In this document: in pieces, positions 3,001 to 49,320 of the stretch
Layout of the letters: each line of letters begins with the position of its first letter
How positions within the stretch are numbered: position 1 is the stretch's first letter
Assembly: GCA_029964075.1 (NCBI GenBank)
Contig: CM057140.1
Coordinates: forward strand, 10,372,643-10,436,642
Direction: 5' to 3'
From: Patiria pectinifera
Lineage: Eukaryota > Echinodermata > Asteroidea > Valvatida > Asterinidae
Length of the DNA stretch: 64,000 nt
Made by a program: the position numbers and the translations under genes
Notes under the pieces: model-generated
What the model was told of the DNA's origin: nothing
The model's database searches: none
What the model saw: the letters and a program-made list of their open reading frames with translations, nothing else

Positions 3001-6000
3001 ACAAATCTATCAAATTTCATGCTGGTTTAACCATTGACACACAAAAATGGGAATGATTCACAATGTGGCGTACCAACAAAATTGCTTTTTATCTGACTTG
3101 TGATTGAGTTGTGATGGTTTGAAAACAACGCTTTGATGTGTGCCAAGGAAAAGGGCGTTAGCAGCCAAGGAGTTTACAGATTTTGTGGAACCATCTCTAA
3201 ATTAAAAATCACATAAGGCAGAAATTTTGACTCATGAAATTTGTTCATAACTGAAGTATTAGTGTGCATTTTTATTCCAAAGTATTACTTAATTTGAAGT
3301 TATTAACATTTTTATGCTAACGACCTTTTACTCGGAACTCTCCCACCATAAAGGTGCACTTAAGTGGCATGTAAAATCATAACGTCCTTTTGCCGGGAAT
3401 AAGTTTGGCTAAGTTACCTACCCACTTCAGTGGGACGTTAGCACACTTGGAACGTATTTTGTTACATTAGTATTACATGCTAACGTCCTGCTGCCAGGAA
3501 AAAAACAATGAAAAACCACCTTCCGTCTTCCTCATACTGTTAATTACGTCAGAATGACGTTAGCTTCGTGAGACAAAATATATATCAAATGAAAGATATT
3601 TCAATGCTCTATCGATTACCCGAAAAATCTGAATTTGACATTTTGACCCATTTTTTTGCTCTAATGACCTTCTTCCACGCGCCTGAAGTCTTGCTTTTTG
3701 TACCTGAAATGTTGGCTGATCTTCAGAATTGATCTCTCGTCTAACCGGGAGTTTGAATTGTGGTTATTTTCGCAGATTGTTAGGCAGTGGTTCCGACGAC
3801 TTCAATGCAATCGTTTGGGACCCTCACCGGAGACGGAAACTCTGTACACTAAGAACCGGTCACCATGGGAATATATTCTCAGTTAAGGTAAATAAAATTT
3901 GCGCAAATATGCAGGGTGAGTAAAAAATAAACGAAACCCAAATGGCAGGACCAATTTTTGAATGACGTTTTGCCTGTAGCACTTTCAAAATCTAGGATAT
4001 GAAAGCCCAATCAATGAGCTTTCTTTTAGTAGAATCATTCAAATCACTCATGTACTTTTCAAGTTATGGAATTTCGAACACAAACACCATTTTAAAGTTC
4101 TGTCCATGGATCACAAAAAAGGTAAGTGTCCTTTCAGCAAAACGAAGACAATTCACCTTCATCAAATGAGAACAATTCATCTGCATCCCTATGAGAATTG
4201 TTTTCGTTTTGCTGAAAGAACACTTCCTTTTGTTGTGATCTGTTGGCAGAACTTTAAAACGGTGGTTGTGTTCAAACTTCGGTAACTTGAAAAGTACATG
4301 AGTGATATGAATGATTCTTGTACTAAAAGACAGCTCATTGACTGGGCTTTCATATCCTAGATTTTGAAAATGCTACAGGCAAAACTTGATTCAAAAAGTG
4401 GTCCTGCCATTTGGGTTTCTTTTTTTTTTACTCATCCTGTATTTACTTTATACCTTCTGAAATCATGGCACAGATGTTGGGTGTATTTGACATAAGGCTG
4501 GCCCTCTGGGACCAGCACAAAGTAATGTCTCTATCTTTAAAGCTAATCATATCACCTGAGAAAGTGTCGTCATTTTTTCCCCCCTACCCTATCACTAAAT
4601 CTTAGTTCCTCCCTAATGCAAATGACGAGACGTTGGTGACCGGCGCGGCCGACCACAAAGTCCGCATCCACAACCTACCCAATCAGGAGACCACGCATGC
4701 CTTCAGCTGCCACGCCGGCCGGGTCAAGAGGCTAGCCGTGGCCCAAAACGTGCCCTACATGTTCTGGAGCTCTGGCGAGGACGGAACAGTCAGGTAAAGC
4801 GACGTTTCAAACCCACTAGTTCTTGCCACATTGGGCGTGATCCCTGGCTACATGGCATATATGGGTTTATGGCTTCTGACTAGCGCCCCTTGAACAAGGA
4901 GATGGATTAGATGGGGTACTGCCAACATTGAGCTGGATAGCTCAGTTGGTAGAGCACTGGTATGGTAATCTAGAGGTAGCAGGTTCAAATCCTGCTCAAG
5001 TCAATTTCTTTTTTCAACTTTTACATAAGTTCTAGACCAATGAAATTTTAGAACCCTGGCGACAATACGGACTTGAAGCACAAGTACCGACTCAGTGGTT
5101 ACAAACGGAGGGTTAAGCTAGGCTCTTAAATGCATTAACCCCCCTGCTATCCAAACAGTCACAGACAGTCAAAAGATCAATCCTCTTCCCCTGCCATGCC
5201 TTTTACACAGGCTAGTCACCAACAGTCAGCTCATATTTCAAGCGAGCACTGTGACTGGTTAATTTCAGTCTGCAGAGAAAAACAGGCAGGTGATAGCACA
5301 GCTGGCTTATCAGTCACCAACAGTCAAAGCATATCCGTATGAAATTACATAAACAGTCACAGCCAGTCAATCCTGCTTTATGTAGGTGGGGAGCTCTTAA
5401 CTGTTTGAAAACAGTCACTTGATTGATTGTGACTGAAAGGACAACTTGGCACAGGGTGTATGTTTGCATAGGAGGGTTAATGCTGTAAACCTGTAGCAAA
5501 GATGCTGAAGATTTTACCCACATTTTGATAAAAATTAATCATATGTACATTTGACAAATGTTTCAGTTGAGGTTGTTTTTCCCTTCCAGACAATTCGACC
5601 TGCGAGCGCCGCACACATGCACGGACAGTTGCAGCAACGTCCTGATCAACCTGAACTGTTACATCGGCAAACAGGCTGAATGCAAGTGCCTTGCCATTAA
5701 CCCACACAGACCAGAACTCATGGCCGGTAAAGTGACTCTCTTTGCATAATTTTTATATTACCTACGAACTAACATTCCTGCAAACTTTCCCTTCCAACCC
5801 TTTATTTGAAAACTGACATATCTGGCCTGAGTTGTGATCCCACTACCGTTTTATGTCAACCATTTACTTCTCTCCTCAGCTAGTTGTGAAAAGTGATCCC
5901 TACTGCTGTTTCATGTAGGCCTTAAACTGCCCCCTCTCAATCTGTACTTGTGATCTAGGAGATTTCATGTCAACCAGTTAGCTCTCTCCGTAGTGCTAGT

Positions 6001-9000
6001 GATCCCTGCTGCTATTTCATGTTCACTATTTACTTCCCTCTCAGGTCCCTTGTCAGAACTTGTGACCCTTCAACTGTTTCATGCCACTATGTTACCTGTC
6101 CCCTTGGTGCTAGTAGTGACCCTTAAACTGTTTAATGTCGCCATTTACTTCACTCCTTGGTACCAGCTATCCCTGCTGCTATTTCATGTCCACTATTTAC
6201 CTCCCTCTCCCGTGTCAGAACTTGTGACCTGTAACTGTTTCATGCCACCATTTTACCTCTCCCTTGGTGCTAGTAGTGACCCTTAAACTGTTTCATGTCA
6301 CCATTTACTTCACCCCTGATACCAGCGATCCCTGCAGCTATTTCATGTCAGCTATTTACCTCTCTCTCCTCAGTTGGTGCTTGTGATCCCTGCTGCTATT
6401 TCATGTCTGCTGTTCATCTTTTTCTCCCCAGTCGGTGCTAATGATCTCTGCTGCTATTTCATGTCTGCTATTCACCTCTCTCTCCTCAGTTGGTGCTAGT
6501 GATCCCTGCTGCTATTTCATGTCAGCTATTTACCTCTCTCTCCTCAGTTGGTGCTAGTGATCCCTGCTGCTATTTCATGTCTGCTATTCACTTCTTTCTC
6601 CTCAGTTGGTGCTAGTGACCCCTACGTGCGGCTGTACGATGCTCGGATGCTGACGCCCCACGCCGTGCATTTCTCCCGAGATGAGAGGATGGGATCGGCC
6701 TGGATGAGACCCATGGCCGCAGACCCAGACGAATGTGGTCTCCTACCCAGGGGATGTGTGCAATATTTTGTGGCAGGTTGGTCCATAAACCCTGTTACTT
6801 AGGGCTGTGCGCTTACAGATAATTTTGAAACCGGGTAACCGAACATAATAGTGGATGGATATCTGGATACCGACTTGAAAGGCAAGAAAGTCTAACTGGG
6901 CTCACTTCTTGAGAACAAAAATGGGAACTTCCACTTTTTATGGATCAACAGTTATTGAAGGTTTTTGTGCTAGTAAAGTAAAACAACCAATAGAAAAGGT
7001 AAAGTGCCTTACTCAAGGGCACAACACGCATGGCCACGGCGCGGCGGGGCTCGAACCACAATCTCACGATCATGAACCCTGTGCCCTACCACTAGACCGC
7101 ACGGATGTTTGAGCAGAGCTTTGTCGTGCCAACAGACAACACCTACGGTCCTTACATATATTGTTGAGTATCTTGTTATGTTTTTATCCACCTTCAGGAC
7201 ACCTGCCACTCAAGGAAAACGACCGGAAAAGAAAATACCGATCGTTAGTCTCCACCTACGTCACCTTCAGTCCCAGCGGGCGCGAGCTCCTGGTCAACCT
7301 GGGCGGTGAACAGGTCTATTTATTCGACCTCTACAACCTGCAGCATCCCAAGGCGTTCAACGTCGGCGATTACGTACTACCAGAACACAGCAACGGGGTC
7401 TGCAAAGGTAGGAATGACAGTTGCCATTAATGATTGAAGCTTTTGTCTTAAAGGGGTATGATTCTTGAGATGGGGTTGCTGACATCTTTGATGTAGTAAT
7501 GGTGTTTGTAATGCGAGCAGGGATGACGATTCCCTTTAATGTTGCAGTTTGGGTTTTTAAAGGGATGAGCATTTCTTGTCAGAGTTCAAACGCGAACACC
7601 TGTGCTAAAACTAGTAGAAACAGCTTTTCTTAGTTGAGTTACTGATGTAGCAGCTGAACTATAGATGAGATTCTGAACTCCCAAGTTTGCAAGACTTGCT
7701 AAATAAGGAAATTCATCTTCTATTTTACTTTGTGGAGCGATAAAACAAATTGTTGGTTTCCTTTGAGCGCACAGTATTTTAATATTGGAAGGGTATTCTA
7801 AGCTTTTACCGACAAGTAAAGATAAATGCGCCCGTAGTTTCCTTTAGAGTGGAGGATTTTAGAGGATTCAAGATCCTTGCAAAAGTCCCCACTTTTCTCA
7901 GGGGTTGAACCCTTACCCTCCACTTTGTTTTGCCTAGAACCCTAAAACACTTTAACCCTCCGACGCAGAAAGCCCATTTACTAACACACTTACAGTAAGG
8001 GGTCCCCCGGGGACCCAAATATTTAGCGCCACGGTTTGAGGCTACACAACACTGTATCCACATGAACACAATCTTGCCATGTCTGTGGACTAAGGAGGTG
8101 TATTGTATACATAGTCTGTGGTCAAGCCGTGCACTGTCTACCCGCAAGTGACCTTGTTTGTTCACTTGTATATGGTGGGTCCCCGGCAGAAATTGCGTCG
8201 GTCCTTAGCCCAGGTTATCAGACTCAGATATGCCTGACCCGGGCTCACACACTAAAGGTGACTGCATATATCCGTAGTGGGTGTCTCGTGCTAGGATTAG
8301 ATGGAAGATCACCAGAATTGGCTTGAATTTTTTTTTTTAATTAAGGTAATTAACCAAATTGGGTCCCCAAAAGGGCTAGTTTCTGCGTCGGAGGGTTAAA
8401 AAAGAAAAAAAGGTAAGAAGCCTTCCCAGTGTCACAAGATAAAACAGAACGAAACTCCCCATGCGAAACTGCCTTAGGGTCTGTGGTTGCATAACTGCGG
8501 CAGGATATGTCTGTGGCATTGTTCAATGGGACTAGCTCTCATTGTTTCAGAATTGGCCATTTAGGCACTGGTGTTGCTGGCTCAGTGCAGCAAGGTCCAA
8601 CTGACTTTTTGCACCTGATGCATTGTGCTACATCTGGCAGGGTCAGGGTTATGATCCCGAAAATCATCTTATGTTATCGTTTCTTTGCAGAAGTCTCGAG
8701 TCAAGTCGCTGAGGCGCTGTCAGCCAATGGCACGTCCATCGGTTCAACCAACGGAGTGACCAAACACTTATCCCATGCAAGCAGCTACAGGCTACAGGAG
8801 GGTTCTCCTGGCACTACCCCATCAACGAGGTAACAAAGACCAGTGGATCACAGTGTTCAAAATCTTCCTGTTACCCTTCTTAATGATGCAGCACTTTCTT
8901 GTTCACTGCAGTAATTGATGGCATGCAAAAATCAACATTTCCCTTACAAATATCTGTTTACTTCGGGCCCAGAATTTATAGTACTGCAAAGCACACAACC

Positions 9001-17945: not shown

Positions 17946-20900
17946 ATGGCAGCGCGCTTGATTTTGCAAAGTGACTGGAACGAATCGCTTTGGTAAGCCG
18001 AATTTCTCGAAACTGCTTCCAACATAGTGAATTTTATTATTGCATGTTCAATAAGAACTATATTTATACTGGTGGTAATATACATTCTGTCTCGGTTTGC
18101 TCTTTTCCAGGCGAAACGAAGGCCAGGCGTGGGTGCTTTGCAAGACACTCGGTAAATTTGACAAGTCATTGCATCTTTTTCGTGAAAAAAAAATGTCCCT
18201 TTAAATTCTGCATGTCATTTAAAAACAAAATGCACGGTGCAATTACTGTTAGTGTTGGATAAGATTTGCACTAATAATGTACTCATTTGTTTCACTGAAA
18301 ATTTCACCTTTTCATTTTAATCGCAGTGAATTGCTAATGAGTTTTAAATTGTTTTTGTTTTGTTTTTGTTGTTTATAATTTCAACAAAAGAAGTGTAGGC
18401 CTATTTGACTGTGTCTGTGAACTGGTCCCCGATTGTTTTTGCTATTACACTGGTGCCAAAAACTGTCTGGTACCAAATAGTGTCCGCTTATTAGCATAAT
18501 GCGATGTGATTGGTCACGCATCTATGACGTCGCATTGTTTACAAATATAGGGTCCACGCTTAGCGTGCATCCTACTGCGTGCCTTGCTGTGGAGCTGTCA
18601 AGGCATCGTACAGCATTCTTTTCACCTGAATTTGCTTTTTACAATCTGTTTTAAAGTTTTCCTTATTATCTGTGATCACTAAGGATGCCCTAGTAGTTCA
18701 AACGTATATTTGTGCAAAATCTTTGCATTGTTTTTGTGTCAGTTCACCTGTTTGAGAACACCTATTTGAATATTTTTATAACATTTCTAACAGGGGAAGG
18801 CAGTACCAGCATTCAAGGAGAGTTGAAGTCACAGGGATTGGACAACAAAGGAATCCCTCAAGTTGTTGCGTCGGAGGGATTCAGAGTTTTGGACATCACA
18901 AGGGTGAGGATGCAGTTACTGCATGAGTAGTACTTCTTGTAATAACTTTCATTTTTGCCGAACTGTCCAGAAATCATCAGTCCATCCCAGGTTACTCCCC
19001 AGCTAATGCTGGTACCCGTTTATACTCCTAGGTGGAGAGAGGCAAGCGGGAGTGAAGTGGCTTGCCCAAGGACACATGTGGCTAGCAGCAGAATTTGAAG
19101 CCGCGACCCCCTTATCACAAGTCAGAGGGCCCTTACCACATAGCCACACTCCCCACAAACAGTTTCAGAAGAACAAATACTATGTTATGTCAGTGCATTT
19201 GCTTTTTTTACAACAATTTGAACAAGGCCAGCCCAGCAGTCAAAATAAATCAAGTGACTGTTTTTTGAACAGTTGAGTGCTCCCAGCCTTCATAAAGCAA
19301 AATTGACTGGCTGTGATTGTTATGAAACCTGATTAAAGCTATGCTTTGACTATAGGAGATTGATAAGCCAGCTGTGCCTACCAGTCACCTGCTTTTGTCT
19401 GTTGATGGAATTTGACTAGTCACAGTGCCTATTGAAATATGATCTGACTGTTGGTGACTAGCCTGTGTAAAAGGCATGGCAGGGGAACAGGATTGAATTT
19501 TTGACTGTCTGTAACTGATCAAACAAAAGGAAGATTATACATGATGGATAAGATTTGTCTCAAAATTGAGGATTGTGGCTTGAAAACAAGTTTGTTTGTT
19601 TCGTTTCAGAGGACAATAACTATTTCCTATCCAGAGAAAGATTTGAAGGCCAAATTCCAAGCTGGCAGTGGGGCATTCAGGAATGTCCACACAAGGGGAG
19701 TAAGTATGCACAAAACAATGATCATTTCTCCTTAACTTTAGACATCCAATAAAAATTTCCATCACCCCATTTGGTTCATTGTTTTTCGCTTCATTTGCAG
19801 ATTATTAGTCTGGACATTTCTTCCGGTGGTGCCCTGGGCGTGTCCTCAGATTCCAACGATTTGTTAAGAATATGGCAGACGTCGGACGGAACAGTGCGAG
19901 TGAGTAATAGACACATGATGCATTCTGTCTCAACCAGACTTTTTTTCAGTTTCCTTTGTTTTAATCTACTAAAAAATGGATTCAAATGTCTGCTCATGTA
20001 TTCACATTTTTTTTAAATTGTGGTTCGCTCCATTTCATAAAAATAACATAGGGTGAAGTACACGTTATTGACTAGTAACTGTGAAAATTTCACGTAATTT
20101 ACATACTCTGTTCCCAATTTATGAATATTTTAATAAAAAAGATCACAAAATTCAGCTGTCCGCCACTGATCATTCTACCGTTCTACGAACTGATGAATAC
20201 CCATTAAATACAATGAATGAAAAATTGACGTTTTTCCCAGCAAGAATGAGCGAAAACACGCAAAGGAAAACAGACACGAATCATCATCAATATTTTAGAA
20301 AAAAAGAAAGAAAAAAAACCCAGTTGACTTGATTGCTTCTCATATTCAAAACACAAAATCTGACAGTAAAATGAACGTTTGAGTCTTGACTCAAATTATT
20401 AAAATGTCATTTTCATTTGAATGCCTTAAGCTTTCAATGGCATCTAATGGACAGCCATAAAAGTAGGTGCTTCATTGGTGTATTATTTTTAAAAAAATCA
20501 TGGATTCAGGTCACTTTCTTTTTGACGCACCCTGTATTGTATGCAATGTTTCTGCTTGCAGAGAGAGCTGAAGGGTCATTTCAGCGAGGTCAGTACCTGC
20601 AGATTCTTCCCGTCCGGCATAGTGGTACTGACCGGCGGTCTGGACAGACAGGTCAAGGTGTGGTCAGTAGAGGACGGCAGCTGCCCGGTCACTCTGAAGG
20701 GTCACACAGGAGGTGAGATGACCGTTGCTTGATTGTGTGGTGAGACATCTGAAGTAGTAAGCAGGTGTCCCAGGTTCGAGTCCTTCCCAAGTCACTCTGC
20801 AAACTTTTTTTTCGTGATGTCTCAGAAATCACCGATCAAAGAGTGCTTTGTCCCTAACCCTGCAAGACACAACACAGTGCATCGGATAAAAAAAAACCTT

Positions 20901-23900
20901 TTCACACTAGACAAATCTCGGGGTCGACGCTGGGTTGACGCAGGGTTGAAAACGTGCAGCGTTTCACACTTGAAACTTTCCCACCCCAGCGTCAACCCTA
21001 ACATTGATTTCGCCCCGGTTGGAACTCAACCCTGCCTCAGACCAGGGTTGAGATTTTCAACCCGGGTTGATCTTACCAGGGATCAAAACAGTAGTGACCG
21101 AGCAAAATAACCTCGATTTGCATGAAACAAGTGTGAAACAATGCAGGTTTGAACAAGGGTTTGAAAGATCAAAATCTCAACTCAGGGCGCGGCACTGGGT
21201 TTGCCCAGGGTTGAGTTCAACCCGGGTTGGGAGGCTGTAGTGTGAAAAGGCCTGACGTCAGTTGGACCTTGCTGCGCTGAACCATCAACACCAGTGCATA
21301 AACGGATGAGAGCTACCGTAGTCCCATTGGACAGTGCCACAGTTGTATCCTGCTGCATTCAGTGACCACGGACTCTGAGGCAGTGTGGCCTTGAGACTTT
21401 TGGCCTGATGGATCTTGCTACACTGGGCAGGCTTGTCATTTAGACAAGTGCTGCATGTTGCTGGGTTCGGCAGGTTTTTTTAGCCAAAATACCCTAGGGG
21501 TAAGGGTTAAGAAATAATAACATCTATGAAAGGGTAAAACTCAATATTAACCACAATAATCTGATGTATAAGCGGTGTTGCCCTTGCAGTGCCCATTTCA
21601 ATTGTGGAGATAACTAGGTAGAAGCGAAGCAATTACAGTAATGTGTCCTGCCAAAGGAAACCAACGAATGCTCCATTTGCTAGTCTAGGACCCTCATTCA
21701 AATGTTATGATGGCATTCTTTTACCGAAGTGAAGTGGCATTCTTTTTCCCATTGCACTGAGACTAAAATGACTAAAATGAAGTACACATGTACATCAGTG
21801 AAGGGCAAAAATTCATTTGAAATTTTCATTTTAGCATTGTAAATTATTTTTTTGAATCCAACTCCTAGGCGTATCCTGCACGGCCATTGTGGACAAAGGC
21901 CGAAATATCGTCACTGGTTCCCGTGATGGCACGGCCAGGCTATGGAACTGCGGCAACTCCAAGTGCCTGGCGACCGTTCACAGCATCAAGGGTTTCATCA
22001 ACGCATGCGCCATCGGCGAGGTCCATGATTCCGTCGACCTCGGAACGCCAGGAAAACCACCAGGTGAGGCAAAGATCATTTGAAAAAAAATTCTTTGTTC
22101 ATTATGAAGTTTGAACTGGCAGGTTTCTGTTTGATATCTTGACTTGCTATCATGAGAAGTTGTTTCTTCCACAAGTTGTCTTTACACTGTCTTCACGTAT
22201 GACTTTCGACAAATACCCACTTAAGCAGGGTCGACCTTAACTTTTTTGTTCACTAGCCAGCCGGGCTTCTAAAACAGACTCTTAACTAGCCCGCGGGCAT
22301 TTTCATTAGCCTGCATGTGTTTTTTTTATAGAGTGTCTCATAAACACAACGTGTAAAACATGTAGCAGCGGATACAGCAATTAAACTATTCATAAGATGG
22401 AATTTTGCGTCGGGGTGATGTAAATCAATATCAGGTTTTGCCCTTCATGTACATCAGATTCGAACCAGCCAACCGATCCTGCAAGCTCGGTGGTCGAGTG
22501 GTAAGACGTCTGCACTAGAAAGCAGGAGGTCGTGGGTTCGAGTCCCACCCGAGTGATTTTTTCCAACTTTCACTCGGGAGGTAACACACTGAGTAGATAC
22601 AGTGTTTATACGTCGGCGAAAGGCAAAACCTGAAATTGATTTACATCACCCCGACGCAACATTCCATCTTATGAATAATGTTAAGTAAAGTTAAACTCAT
22701 GGTTGTTTTAGGCTTTCTGTAAATAGAGGCTGCTTGCTTTGACTGTGCGTTGTCATGGGCAAGGAATCGTTACGAGATCTTTAAATTTTCAAATTTTGTT
22801 AAAATCTGAACAGAAAAAAATTTCTCTTTTTTTTATCATAGCGGAGGAGGAGTGTGGTACAGTGGGGAAGATGTTGCTATTAGCAACCGAGGGAGGCGAG
22901 CTGATTGGTGTAGGGCTACATAGCAGGAAAAAGGTGGGTAGCAATATGCGGACGAAAACTATATAGAAATTGTTCCGGAACAGAAGTTATCTCTCTCTGT
23001 GATACCAATCAAGAGGTAATCATAAGCCGAGTGCAAAACATTCAGAGGGGTCCAGGTGTTAGCAAGATTGGACTACAACTTGTTTTTGTCTGATATCTTC
23101 GGGAATTAAAGGTAACATGCAACATTTGCAAACATCAATAACAAAAAAACTACCAAAATATTATGAAATACCTCACTTGACTGCAAGTGAGTGATAGTCT
23201 AGAGCATTCTGTGAAATCATGGCACCTGGTGTGCTGTCATTTTCAAGAAAAGAGGAATTTTTGTATCAATTTCCAATGATGAACGGCTGGAAAAAGTGCC
23301 TTTTTTTCCAAACACTGTTCCCAATTTACCAAATTCGGTTAGTCTACATGTTGTTTGCAATCGGTTACACATCCGTGAACGGGTGCAAGCCAGTTAGTCT
23401 GGTTCCCTGACTTGACAATTTCTCAACATCTATAAATTGCAGCGTTTTGTCTGAAGTAGGGTCAGGGAACCAGACTTACAACAACAGCATTTTGTTTCCT
23501 CGGTTTTTCTAGCATCTATGAACACAAAACTTTAAAACAACAGAGGTTGATGGTTAAATTTGAAATCGTATTTGTACTTTTCCCAGATTTTCCAAGTCGA
23601 GGGTTCGGCAGCTTTCAACTGCTGCGCGTTCCTGGCCAACGACTCGGTGGTTGCCGGGAGCCAAGATGGTTCCATTCACATCGTAGATGTTAGAAATCAC
23701 AGGTGGGCTGTCAAAAATCCTTTGTCATTTTTGTGTTTGAAAAGCTGTATCCTCTCTGAGTGATCCCCATTTGCTATTTCTCCAGTTTGCAGCATTGCTG
23801 ATGTTGCTAGCATCGTGACTTTGGGCGTGATCCCTGGCTACATGGCACATATGGGTTGATGGCTTCTGACTAGCGCCCCGTGAACAAAGACATTGACAAA

Positions 23901-24807
23901 ATGGGCATACGCCAAAATCGGGCTGGATAGCTCAGTTGGTAGAGCACCGGAACGGCAATCCGGAGGTCGCAGCTTCAAACCCTGCTCTAGTCAATCTCTT
24001 TGTTCAACTTTAAAAGTGTTTTCCCTTGAAGATATTTCCTACACATCCTGATAGTGATATGAAGCATAAACTTTCTCCTTCCTGTTGTGAAAACTCCTGA
24101 ACAAAGTACAGTGTTAGTTATCCTACGAGCGCGAGTGGAACACATAATTATGAAGTGTGTCTGTATCAAATATGCCACAAGGGTAAAGATGGGACATAGT
24201 ATAAGATAAGGTCATACGCTGTGATCACATTTAAGCTGTTAACTGATTAGGTGTGCATGCATCAGAAAAATGTGCTCGTCTTAAGATTGTATACGATAAG
24301 CACCATGCAGTATGAACCATGCAGTATGAACCAGTATGAACCAGTATGAACCAGTATGAACCAGTATGAACCAGTATGAACCAGTATGAACCAGTATGAA
24401 CCAGTATGAACCAGTATGAACCAGTATGAACCAGTATGAACCAGTATGAACCAGTATGAACCAGTATGAACCAGTATGAACCAGTATGAACCAGTATGAA
24501 CCAGTATGAACCAGTATGAACCAGTATGAACCAGTATGAACCAGTATGAACCAGAATGAACCAGTATGAACCATGCAATACAGGATAATACAACACCGTC
24601 GTTTCTATGGATCGACTAATCAGGATCAAGTTCAAGTTTGCTTGAAAATAAAACTTTTCACCTTGATGATTTTCTAAATTTTGTATTTTGTACGTAATTT
24701 TCTTGTCTATTTAAATTTCAATAGCCAACCTGCCAAAGTTGTGCAAAAGACGTCCTCTCCCATCCTGTGCATTCAAGCCCACAAGAACGGCTTCATTGCT
24801 GGTACAG
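17946..24807 (+). CDS. PAAF1: PAAF1, proteasomal ATPase-associated factor 1, WD40 protein; 3' end not found
   Basis: Exons: 17946-17992, 18111-18151, 18794-18903, 19610-19699, 19801-19899, 20562-20712, 21869-22063, 22842-22933, 23587-23702, 24725-24807. All have AG acceptors and GT donors and the phases join to 341 codons plus one base. The ATG has A at -3 and G at +4. The N-terminus (LILQSDWNESLW, NEGQAWV) matches the vertebrate start. WD40 blades: ~97-128 (LDISSGGALGVSSDSN, LRIW), ~132-175 (LKGH, CRFFPSGIVVLTGG, VKVWS), ~180-208 (IVTGSRDGTARLW). Later come KMLLLATEGGEL, AFNCCAFLANDSVVAGSQDG and KNGFIAGTG. Human PAAF1 has 392 residues, so about 50-60 are missing at the C-terminus. Family knowledge: binds the base ATPases of the 19S particle and negatively regulates 26S proteasome assembly. 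It starts only a few hundred bases after the WDTC1 poly(A) signals, in the same direction. Confidence 0.94.
18152..18793. other. PAAF1 intron 2, no recognisable element
   Basis: AT-rich intron sequence with no terminal repeats, tRNA-like motifs or coding potential that I can support. Confidence 0.4.
19235..19523 (-). mobile_element. TTAA-family MITE, decayed copy D
   Basis: Reverse-complement relative of 5135-5480: shared blocks include AAGTGACTG, GACTGGCTGTGA, GGTGACTAGCCTGTGTAAAAG and TTGACTGTCTGT. The outer TTAA ends are lost. It lies in PAAF1 intron 3. Confidence 0.6.
20897..21250. mobile_element. MITE with CCTTTTCACACTA ends
   Basis: A perfect 13-base inverted pair (20897-20909 and 21238-21250) bounds a segment rich in CAGGGTTGA and CAACCCTG words and two CAACCCGGGTTG palindromes (about 21058 and 21219). 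It lies in PAAF1 intron 6. The superfamily is not determined. A tRNA-like B box (GGTTCGAGTCC, about 20773) lies just upstream and may be a separate SINE fragment. Confidence 0.65.
22228..22343. mobile_element. Fragment related to the 57516-57924 element
   Basis: GTCGACCTTAACTTTT...CACTAGCCAGCCGGGCTTCT...CTCTTAACTAGCCCGCGGGCATT is close to the reverse complement of the right part of 57516-57924. Truncated copy in PAAF1 intron 7, just upstream of the tRNA-bearing MITE. Confidence 0.55.
22388..22676. mobile_element. MITE carrying a tRNA-like sequence between ~54-bp TIRs
   Basis: The left arm ATTCATAAGATGGAATTTTG... and the right arm (complement ATTCATAAGATGGAATGTTG...) match over about 54 bases with two mismatches. 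Between them, at about 22482-22555, is a tRNA-like sequence with a D-arm region (GGTGGTCGAGTGGTAAGAC), a CTAGAAA anticodon-loop-like segment and a B box (GGTTCGAGTCCC), followed directly by a T6 run that could end Pol III transcription. The anticodon loop has one extra base. It resembles a serine-type tRNA. It lies in PAAF1 intron 7. Confidence 0.75.
23106..23555 (+). mobile_element. Decayed member of the palindrome-bearing TTAA MITE family
   Basis: Begins TTAAAGGTAACATGCAACATTTGC and shares ordered blocks with 28007-28525 (AATCATGGCACCTGGTGTGCTGTCATTTTCAAG; TTACACATCCGTGAACGGGTGCAAGCC; GGGTCAGGGAACCAGACT). Where the other copies carry the palindrome there is only CCAATGATGAACGGCTGG. It lies in PAAF1 intron 8. 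Confidence 0.65.
23760..24015 (+). mobile_element. Composite tRNA-like SINE (copy 2)
   Basis: The body (GTTGCTAGCATCGTGACTTTGG, CCCTGGCTACATGGCACATA, GGCTTCTGACTAGCGCC) precedes a tRNA-like part at 23921-23993. That part folds as acceptor 7 bp, D arm GCTC/GAGC, anticodon stem CCGGA/TCCGG with loop ACGGCAA, and T arm GCAGC-TTCAAAC-CCTGC. The anticodon position reads GGC (Ala type), but base 33 is C instead of the near-universal T and the T stem has a C-C mismatch. It is thus more likely a SINE than a working tRNA. Located in PAAF1 intron 9. Confidence 0.65.
24331..24570. repeat. CCAGTATGAA decamer satellite, 24 units
   Basis: Twenty-three perfect CCAGTATGAA units and one variant (CCAGAATGAA at 24551) in strict 10-base register. 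It lies in PAAF1 intron 9, about 150 bases before exon 10. It sits inside a longer repeat (about 24100-24650) that resembles 61640-61930, so it looks like expansion of a word inside an older element. Open frames on the minus strand are by-products. Confidence 0.95.
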
Positions 24808-43329: not shown

Positions 43330-44455
43330 AGTGATCCCCGTTTGCTATTTCCCAGGTTGGCAGCATTTGCTAATGTTACTAGCATCGTGACTTTTGGCAT
43401 AATTCCTGGCTACATGGCATAAACAGGTTTATGGCTTCTGACTTTATGGCCCCTTGAACAAATTGGTATTGTCCGCACTACAGGTAGTCTATCTTATCAG
43501 GTGTTTTTGTGAGCCAACTTGCCAGATTAATTTCAGAAGAAGGGCAAATCATTACTTTTATTGTGTAATATTCTTAGTAATGGCAGTTTTAGAATTTTGA
43601 TCTTGTTTTGGTTAGTGATTGGGATTTAAATCCGAATTTAAAAATTTTGGTTTGAATTGCACTATTCGGTTTCGATTTAAACCGGATATCCGAAATCGAC
43701 CTGAAAAAAATTCAGCCTTCCATTTTTTTGTGGCACAGGCTAAAGAAATAAACTGGAACATCCTCCAATTTGCTCTATGGTCTCTGATTGTAACTGCATT
43801 CCCTTGCTAGTGGTCTTCTCGGTACATTTATGTATATGAATAGTCCGCCCGTTCGACTTACCAGAGAGTTCCCATTCGTTGTTTTTTTTTCAACATTTTA
43901 GCTCTGGAGCTTTTTTGTAAAGGCCCAGTGGTCATTAAGTCCTGCAAACTATACCCAGTCATATGGAGGGCATTTCATGTGGCACCTCACTTACAATTGT
44001 CAAGTTTTTGCTGGCATGACTGTGAGCTGGATGGGAACTTCCGGTGAAATTGGATACTGTTATTTGGTTTGAAAAAATTCAGATAACCGGGTTTGAAATC
44101 TCCGATTCCTCCCACCACTAGTGTTGATGTGGAGGGCATTGTGATTGAGGGTGTGAAATGTATATATATCTTAATTTACTTTCGTTTTAAATCTTTGACA
44201 TTTTAAACCAATTTCAATGTATTTTTAGATTTTTATTACTCTTATTGCTAATAAATAATATTTTTATGATCCGTTGACAAAACAATTTTTCTAGACTGGA
44301 TATAATATATAATTGAATTGAAACTGGAAATGAAAGCAAAATGGAGAACCCGTTAACATCACAGGGCTGGATAGCTCAGTTGGTAGAGCACTGGAACGGC
44401 AATCCGGAGGTCGCAGGCTCAAACTCCGCTCCAGTCAATTTCTTTGTTCAACTTT
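43330..44455 (+). mobile_element. Composite SINE apparently split into body and tRNA-like part
   Basis: The body (GATCCCCGTTTGCTATTT, TTGGCAGCATTTGCTAATGTTACTAGCATCGTGA, CCTGGCTACATGGCATAA) lies at 43330-43450. The tRNA-like part, with GGCTGGATAGCTCAGTTGGTAGAGC and a full acceptor stem, lies at 44365-44437. In the other copies these parts are about 40 bases apart. The tRNA-like part has loop ACGGCAA (C at position 33) and two weak T-stem pairs. The intervening ~900 bases (43451-44360) may be a later insertion. Confidence 0.5.
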
Positions 44456-46760: not shown

Positions 46761-48699
46761 CTTTCACCAAAATACCACATACTACATACGGACAGACACA
46801 GTGATTCCATAGTCTCTTTCCTGAACGAAGTTCAGACGAGACCAAAAAGGATGAGCTGTGAATGTGTACTTGGTCCAAACTACCTCAGAAAATCTCTCCG
46901 TACAGCGTTTGCAATTGTTTTATGCATTCTGCACATGTCAGGTGATACAGTTAAGCAGAAGGTCAAAATGCAACTCTTTGTCCTGGAAACAAATTGTCTT
47001 CAAGGAGACAGTGACAAGTGTGGATCGCTGACTTTCCTGAGAGTTTTTTTTCCCCCTGATCTGTGACTCTCATGCCCCTTTGCTCTCGATTATTCCAGTC
47101 AATTACTATCGGTGGCAGGCCTTGGATGCTGCAGTCAGATGGGTGAATAATCAGAAACAAGTCTAGAGGAAAAACACTGACCTGATTTTCTCTGTGCACA
47201 GCCCTTTGACTGACCCAGACCTTTTGCGCCAGGAAAGCAGTTGGCTGAAACAGAAACTCGAACCCCCAAGGTAGCCCATTTGGGCAAATTCAAGGATGCT
47301 TGGGGTTGATTTTAGTCATGACGGAGGCAGACAATGCAAGACACACCTTACAGGGTGCAGTCACGCTTCCTTCTTTACTACACGGCTATACTGTTAAGTT
47401 TGACCACATGTACGGTACATGTACGTCATCTTGACTCACTGTTCTTGACATTCCATGTGTTGATTTTCTTGTCTGACTGGCCACCTCTTTTGTTAATACA
47501 GACTTATTCTGCGAACCACAATTAGATGCTATTTCTAAGGTGGTGCCTCACCACGGCTGTAGGACCAGAGTCTAGGACTTGGACTCAGAGTCTGTCTCGA
47601 GTCACAATTTTGGTCGCTTGCGACTGAAATGAATGGCTCGTTCATTAATATTACTGAGAATAAAGGTTAAGGGCTGCTGATGTGTTGTTTTGATGATGTA
47701 ATGTCAAAGGTCATCCAGGGGTCAATTGAGGTCACAACTCATGATGGCAAAAATTAATGCTATTGTTTAAATACATGCACATTCCAGGAGCCAATTATTT
47801 CTTCCACTGAAAATGAACTGCTTCTACAAGAATAAGAACACACAACACATAAGGGATCGACAGCGGAAAAAAAGGTGACACGTGTGATTCGCGGATCACC
47901 TTGTATTCTGAACTTGCACAAACTGTGGCGTCTTAACATGAGCGTCAGCCGTGACAGGCGGTGCGTGCAAGACTCCCTCTCAGTGGGCCCTTGCAAGTTC
48001 CCTGTTGCAACCCCCAAGGAAGTACTTGTTCTGCATGTTCTACATATCTCACTTTCCCTTTTAGGTACTGACTTTGTCCCCTCCCAACCTTTTGAACAAA
48101 CCGCTACCCCACCATTCACTCACATTCTTCCATCCACCCTCCCGCTCCTACATCCCTTCATGAGCACTCCGGATCCCAAGCCATCATCTCAGGAAGCAAT
48201 CCCGGCTTCCTCAACACATGTCGTCTTGACCTACTAACGTCAGACCCTCTCCCCTTGTTCCTCCCAAGGCCCTCTCCGCAGCGTTCCTTGACCCCTGTCT
48301 CATGACAGACTTGACTCCCAAAGTTCAAGGGTGGCCCAGAGAATAATGACCCCCTCTTGAATTTCAGAGTCGTGAAATCAGATGCACCGATAGTCTGACT
48401 GGACGCGGTTGTAAATTACAGACAAAGCCAGTTTGATATTTCAAAGTTGTTCTTAATGGCGTGTCTGTAAATCTCTCTCAGGCTCTGTAATTGTGACTCA
48501 CAGCCTGGCATTTTGATGAAATTTTTATTAGGAATTGACGAGTGTCTGGCAATTTTCATGTCTTGACATTAAAAATGTATGCCCGCTAATCAATAATGGG
48601 AATGTTGAGCTGTCTTTTGTGAGCCTGGATGCCAGTTTGTCAGTCCGTTTTAAAACTGCCTTGGTTGTCTGTCGTGAAATTAGTAAATTGCTTGCGTGC
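46761..48699. other. Unassigned stretch
   Basis: Open frames at 46662-47066 and 47875-48237 show no recognisable domain; the first starts within the tandem repeat. A TCAAAGGTCATCC and AGGTCA cluster lies at about 47703-47735. Confidence 0.3.
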
Positions 48700-49320
48700 T
48701 TGCTCAGTATTCTGCTTGCTTGCTTGCTTGCCGGCTTGCCTTCCTGCCTGCTTACCTGCTTACCTGCTTGCTTGCTTGCTTGCCTGCTTGCTTGCCTGCT
48801 TATTGCCTACTTGCTTGCTGGCTTGCTTCCTTGCTTACTTGCTCCCCTCCTTGCTTGGTGCCTTGTTAGATATCTTGCTTGCTTACTTGCTTACCTGTTT
48901 GCTTGCTTGTTTGCTTGCCTGCTTGCTTGCCTTCTTGCTTGCTTGTTTGCATGCCTGCCTTCTTGCTCCCCTGCTCCCCATCTTGCTGGCTTACTTGCTT
49001 ACTTCCTTGCTTGCTTTCTCCCTGCTTGCTTGCTTGTTATCTTGCTTGCTTACTCCCCTGCTTGTCTACCTACTTCCTTGCTTGCTTGCTTACTTGCTTG
49101 CTGGCTCCCCATCCTGCTTTCTTACTTACTTGCTTACTTTGCTTGCTTGCTTGCTCTCCTGCTTACTCCCCGGCATACTTTCTAGCCTGCCTGCTTGTCG
49201 GCTTGCTTGCTGGGTAACCTGCTAGATATATTGCTTGCTTACTTGCTTGCTTATTTGCTGACTCCCCTAATTGCCTGCTTGCTTACTGGCTTGCTTGCTC
49301 GCATCATGGAGCTATGCTTG
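48700..49320. repeat. Degenerate (TTGC)n tetranucleotide tract, ~600 bp
   Basis: Long interrupted CTTG/TTGC repeat with TTAC, TGCC and CCCC variants. All three plus-strand frames stay open for long distances and would encode leucine/alanine/cysteine-rich polymers, as expected from the repeat. Confidence 0.95.

Follow-up and report, generated by a model that had tools for sequence, protein, structure and literature searches.

A probable mirage-type minisatellite spanning an intron-exon boundary in a WDTC1-like gene of the sea star Patiria pectinifera

In a WDTC1-like gene of Patiria pectinifera, the boundary between an intron and the following exon is repeated in tandem, and the copies fill most of the intron. 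The array is probably a boundary-spanning minisatellite of the "mirage" type, which has grown neutrally, leaves the true AG in use and has no regulatory role. The term comes from the lancelet literature, where it denotes a tandem duplication of an intron-exon boundary (PMC3087553, PMC3902484). An earlier note on this DNA had offered neutral satellite growth and tuning of WDTC1 levels by nonsense-mediated decay (NMD) as alternatives; neutral growth is the best explanation of the two. Coordinates refer to the analyzed stretch of 64,000 nucleotides (the window; assembly GCA_029964075.1, contig CM057140.1, positions 10,372,643 to 10,436,642), and all features of the gene and array lie on its plus strand.

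The array occupies an 879-base intron (5727..6605) between exon 6 (5590..5726), which ends in phase 1 with the donor CCG/gtaaag, and exon 7 (6606..6776), which is 171 bases long and ends with the donor GCAG/gttggt; exon numbers are those of the earlier note. On re-reading, the exact 58-base period and the AGs ending at 6373, 6431, 6489, 6547 and 6605 described in that note were all recovered, as was the pyrimidine tract preceding each of the five (15 of 17 pyrimidines at positions −20 to −4). The last of these AGs is the true acceptor (6604..6605), and each of the five precedes a copy of the exon start. The repeat unit thus comprises the last bases of the intron and the first 17 bases of the exon (6606..6622). 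The intronic part of these young units, U10 to U14, extends over 6341..6605 with a spacing of exactly 58 bases, and U10, U12 and U13 are mutually 95 to 98% identical. Tandem Repeats Finder reported 6327-6623 as a repeat of period 58 with 5.1 copies, 88% matches, 0% indels and a score of 475.

The complete array is larger than the earlier note reported. Anchoring on TTTCATG-like motifs delimited 14 units, of which the nine older ones (U1 to U9, 5849..6340) measure 50 to 62 bases each and share 61 to 87% identity with U13. Among them, a higher-order repeat of three units (∼160 bases) occurs twice, as U4-U6 and as U7-U9, with unit-by-unit identities of 88, 94 and 86%. Identity to the boundary and to the young units falls in the upstream units, as expected if recent growth took place on the exon side. 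Units thus join both sides of a single boundary, the intron supplying the pyrimidine tract and AG and the exon supplying 17 bases, and the splice signal is present in many but not all of them: a pyrimidine tract with an AG scoring at least 4.3 was found in 7 of the 14 units (at 5879, 6044, 6373, 6431, 6489, 6547 and 6605). Most old units have no AG. The A of the acceptor is kept in 2 and the G in 3 of the 9 old units, compared with a column mean of 71%, and TCAG ties for the least kept 4-base stretch among them, with some other columns equally low, partly since at those columns it is the young consensus that has changed. This decay could mean that harmful decoys were lost or that the old units descend from a variant already without the AG; the units are not independent of one another. 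An exonic seed longer than 17 bases was rejected, the signal being weak for U1 (p of about 0.03 to 0.04) and absent from the other nine tails tested.

Searches of the 613.5-Mb assembly (1020 contigs), in which only the best candidates are scored and very common words are skipped, gave three matches to the exon motif, all in this intron-exon region, and four to the young array, all inside this WDTC1-like intron. A dispersed or mobile repeat was rejected because genome matches were confined to this intron. The whole region matched the assembly once; it is single-copy there and therefore offers no second allele for comparison. Taken with the 17 coding bases in the unit and the lower identity upstream, this confinement supports the proposal of the earlier note that an exon boundary had been amplified. 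Among other queries, the 20 exon matches of the tektin family show that exon-sized matches can be found in this genome, and a search of the genome with COX1 gave no match. No genome match was found for a lancelet-derived fluorescent protein or for the GFP family, a result that is weak alone as no known-positive genome was searched.

The joined frames of the host gene clearly match WD40 and TPR, both of which WDTC1 carries. The name WDTC1 was the label of the earlier note and is used here as an assignment from the joined frames, which were compared with general rather than WDTC1-specific models. The gene model starts downstream of the first exon or exons, and its frame breaks between 7407 and 9930. 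No solved structural relative of the protein was found at an E value of 0.001. A short segment containing the exon start gave two beta-propeller model matches (E values of 0.0007 and 0.03), both below the curated cut-offs, and a WD40-blade reading of the 17 exonic bases is therefore weak by itself. Downstream on the same strand, coding-like segments at 20559-22077 appeared by eye to belong to a second WD40-like gene.

The window contains several further repeats. Two 17-base minisatellites in opposite orientation (1491-1619 and 2042-2202) flank a G+C-rich segment at ∼1738-1992 in an arrangement resembling a fold-back element. Four tRNA-family matches (4931-5003, 22484-22556, 23921-23993 and 44365-44437) are perhaps tRNA-derived SINEs; the first of them sits in the intron before exon 6. 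About 25 almost perfect copies of a 10-base unit were present at 24322-24573, and a diverged TTGC-type repeat covers 600 bases at 48688-49299.

When the frame is carried over from the phase 1 donor at 5726, all four young decoys run through 22 codons and then into a stop in the next unit, as the earlier note had claimed. We scored acceptors with a small matrix built from the gene's 11 other acceptors, whose own leave-one-out scores ranged from −13.0 to 12.7 (median, 7.9). The decoy AGs at 6372..6373 (score 6.6, stop TAA at 6439), 6430..6431 (6.2, TAG at 6497), 6488..6489 (4.4, TAG at 6555) and 6546..6547 (6.6, TAG at 6613) are by this measure not weaker than the true site, which scored 4.3. 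The anatomy of poison acceptors that the earlier note proposed is thus, on paper, real. None of the five sites stands out, their scores being reached by 12 to 31 of 521 other intronic AGs. Two older decoys scored higher, one in U1 (5878..5879; score 9.3, stop after 5 codons) and one in U4 (6043..6044; score 8.0, stop after 80 codons). Use of a young decoy would extend the exon from 171 to 229, 287, 345 or 403 bases. Although a premature stop follows all four young decoys, the same holds, with a stop at or before 6615, for 29 of the 30 AGs that precede 6605 in the intron, and early stops therefore say little about design. The one exception, the AG of GTGCTAG at 6556..6557, leads into the exon in frame without meeting a stop, which would lengthen the protein by 16 residues; it lies outside the 14 best-scoring AGs. 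RNA structure hiding the decoys was rejected, as the young array folds worse than shuffled sequences (z = 1.72; 97 of 100 shuffles were at least as stable).

The neighborhood was surveyed for other boundary duplications over 264 kb, i.e., the window with 100 kb of flank to its left and right. With a codon model trained on 1289 codons, we obtained 80 coding-like segments, of which 53 in four gene spans were kept and 27 dropped (four were removed manually as repeats or doubtful cases, the others for their position or strand). A similar copy no more than 1.3 kb upstream, with a score of at least 18, accompanied the acceptor region of 3 of the 53 segments, namely the WDTC1 exon and two exons of an IGF2R-like gene (named by eye); no donor among the 53 reached this score. 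The positional controls did so in 5 of 159 cases each for acceptors and donors. One of the IGF2R-like exons, on the minus strand at ∼10302400-10302800 of the contig, ∼70 kb left of the window, carries a second clear boundary array. Here, the acceptor and ∼70 exonic bases recur 113 bases upstream (91 bases compared, ∼87% identical), and a further copy, 211 bases upstream, has decayed. The decoy is longer by a single G, and reading it in the phase of the true site leads to TAA after 12 codons. The other IGF2R-like exon (minus strand; window-relative positions ∼−67551 and −66783) is a weaker case, with the acceptor and ∼12 exonic bases in a single copy ∼770 bases upstream.

A second sample comprised 12 exon loci taken from the 20 tektin-family exon matches in the genome. 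One of 12 acceptor regions and none of 12 donors reached the score. In this weaker case, a tektin-like locus (L020) on the minus strand whose two copies lie 211 bases apart, with AGs near positions 1298 and 1509 when the locus is reversed, the duplication runs through the real AG and ∼7 exonic bases as read by eye; the AG chosen by the script lay upstream of the boundary. Comparison with solved structures gave the tektin-2 exon 203.5 bits with chain 8snb_8J, whereas no other entry provided a chain above 129.8, and the tektin-1 exon 171.8 bits with 8snb_8Q versus 136.4. The entry 8SNB is a sea urchin doublet (PMC10973386). The tektin-3-like exon reversed the order, with 131.6 bits for mammals versus 104.5 for the best urchin chain; we infer that the urchin structure contains no tektin-3-like paralogue. 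With two of the three exons closest to sea urchin, a lancelet genome was rejected in favor of an ambulacrarian, most likely an echinoderm.

Background windows reached the score in 20 of 394 cases within introns (the WDTC1 array included) when looking upstream and in 19 of 394 when looking downstream; the corresponding counts for exon windows were 1 of 59 and 0 of 59. With WDTC1 left out, the rate at acceptors (3/64) was that of introns (20/394; p = 1.0), and donors gave 0/65 versus 19/394 (p = 0.09). Enrichment of arrays at acceptors was accordingly rejected. Since acceptors do not differ from introns, tandem duplication that goes on throughout introns seems simply to include them at times. 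Both this background rate and the further boundary arrays in the genome, one clear and two weaker, speak in favor of neutral growth.

Under neutral growth, the intron's 3′ part, with its branch-point-like motifs, pyrimidine tract and AG, would have been duplicated in tandem together with 17 exon bases, and the array would then have grown and turned over, presumably via slippage or unequal exchange, leaving the most uniform copies next to the exon and older ones decaying upstream. The spliceosome most likely still picks the last AG at 6605, which would be favored through exon definition, as no other AG is followed by the exon in its shortest, complete form with a donor downstream. This argument is weakened because the donor of that exon, gttggt, looks by eye the poorest of the gene's eleven. 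Decoy use would be rare noise, presumably cleared by NMD.

A true site that does not outscore its decoys speaks against neutral growth with 6605 as the only site used. In a poison-acceptor array, some transcripts would use the decoys, reach a stop and be degraded by NMD, with copy number setting WDTC1 output. The four strong young decoys, which stop after 22 codons with more exons downstream, would suit such an array. So would the human ABCA7 VNTR, whose donor-starting unit is described as altering splicing, with retention of one unit giving a frameshift (PMC5954066); this case shows that such arrays can have consequences and so keeps the poison reading alive, but it does not support that reading in the WDTC1-like array. 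Early stops, however, follow nearly every upstream AG, the AG has been lost from most old units, and arrays are not enriched at acceptors, where duplication proceeds at the intron background rate. Lancelet arrays are moreover said to leave splicing undisturbed (PMC3087553, PMC3902484), and open-licence papers on WDTC1 with alternative splicing and nonsense-mediated decay gave nothing relevant. We therefore regard a poison-acceptor array as very unlikely here, and find it equally improbable that poison acceptors of variable copy number set or buffer WDTC1 output via NMD.

The loss of AGs bears on another alternative, namely that growth was mostly neutral while decoys were mildly harmful and purged, such that old units persist mainly after losing their AG. 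That the old units have preserved little else as poorly as the acceptor AG (A in 2/9, G in 3/9, TCAG tied lowest) could indeed reflect selection against decoys rather than strict neutrality. Yet U4-U6 and U7-U9 share descent, so that the AG was lost only a few times, the same picture would follow if the old part had been founded by a unit without the AG, and the sites at 5879 and 6044 retain strong acceptors; we judge purging unlikely. The array might also be a step towards a gained intron or a new alternative exon, a model put forward in the lancelet globin paper (PMC3087553). This would be at odds with young decoys that all run into a stop, any donor between the units would be putative, and the idea has hardly any probability in our estimation. 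Finally, the number of young copies might be an assembly artefact, given the near identity of U10, U12 and U13 and the aberrant assembly of a lancelet globin array that the same paper reports for a draft genome (PMC3087553). Since the units differ from one another by degrees and include a higher-order repeat, a pattern that misassembly would not make, this is extremely improbable, and it would put in doubt at most the number of young copies.

Neutral growth of a mirage-type minisatellite also agrees with known systems. In the lancelet papers, the BflGb6 minisatellite likewise spans the 3′ end of an intron and the 5′ part of an exon, further mirages are named in PGBD5, Adh and TnC (PMC3902484), AG or GT is present in many but not all units, the repeats are private to their gene, and normal splicing is reported (PMC3087553, PMC3902484). 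Length instability between haplotypes is a further trait of mirages. The unit found here measures 58 bases, in contrast to 150 to 160 in BflGb6 and 10 to 72 in Adh3 (PMC3087553, PMC3902484). The WDTC1-like array is further set apart by its 14 units, most of them decayed. Its host is an echinoderm rather than a lancelet; lancelets are where the name was coined, and the host group is not part of the structure. The human ABCA7 intron-18 VNTR is also a tandem repeat that adjoins an exon and carries a splice signal per unit, and one retained unit shifts the frame to a premature stop, as the decoys here would; in contrast, its unit is 25 bases long and carries a donor instead of an acceptor, and its effect on splicing has been measured (PMC5954066). 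Aside from this donor-bearing VNTR and the IFI6 case below, we found no mirage outside lancelets in the open-licence literature. The minisatellite of IFI6 has a short unit with multiple splice donors; like the array described here, it offers several splice sites, on the donor side. Introns reportedly arose from tandem duplications in the accounts of Zhuo (2007) and of Gao and Lynch (2009).

These results suggest that boundary-duplicating minisatellites are not a lancelet peculiarity and that, in an echinoderm, they affect more than one acceptor in a small sample. If the poison-acceptor reading were true, the array would be an NMD-tuning element in a phylum without previously described boundary-duplicating minisatellites. 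Each such array is a natural experiment on how the spliceosome chooses among near-identical acceptors and on how fast decoys are lost.
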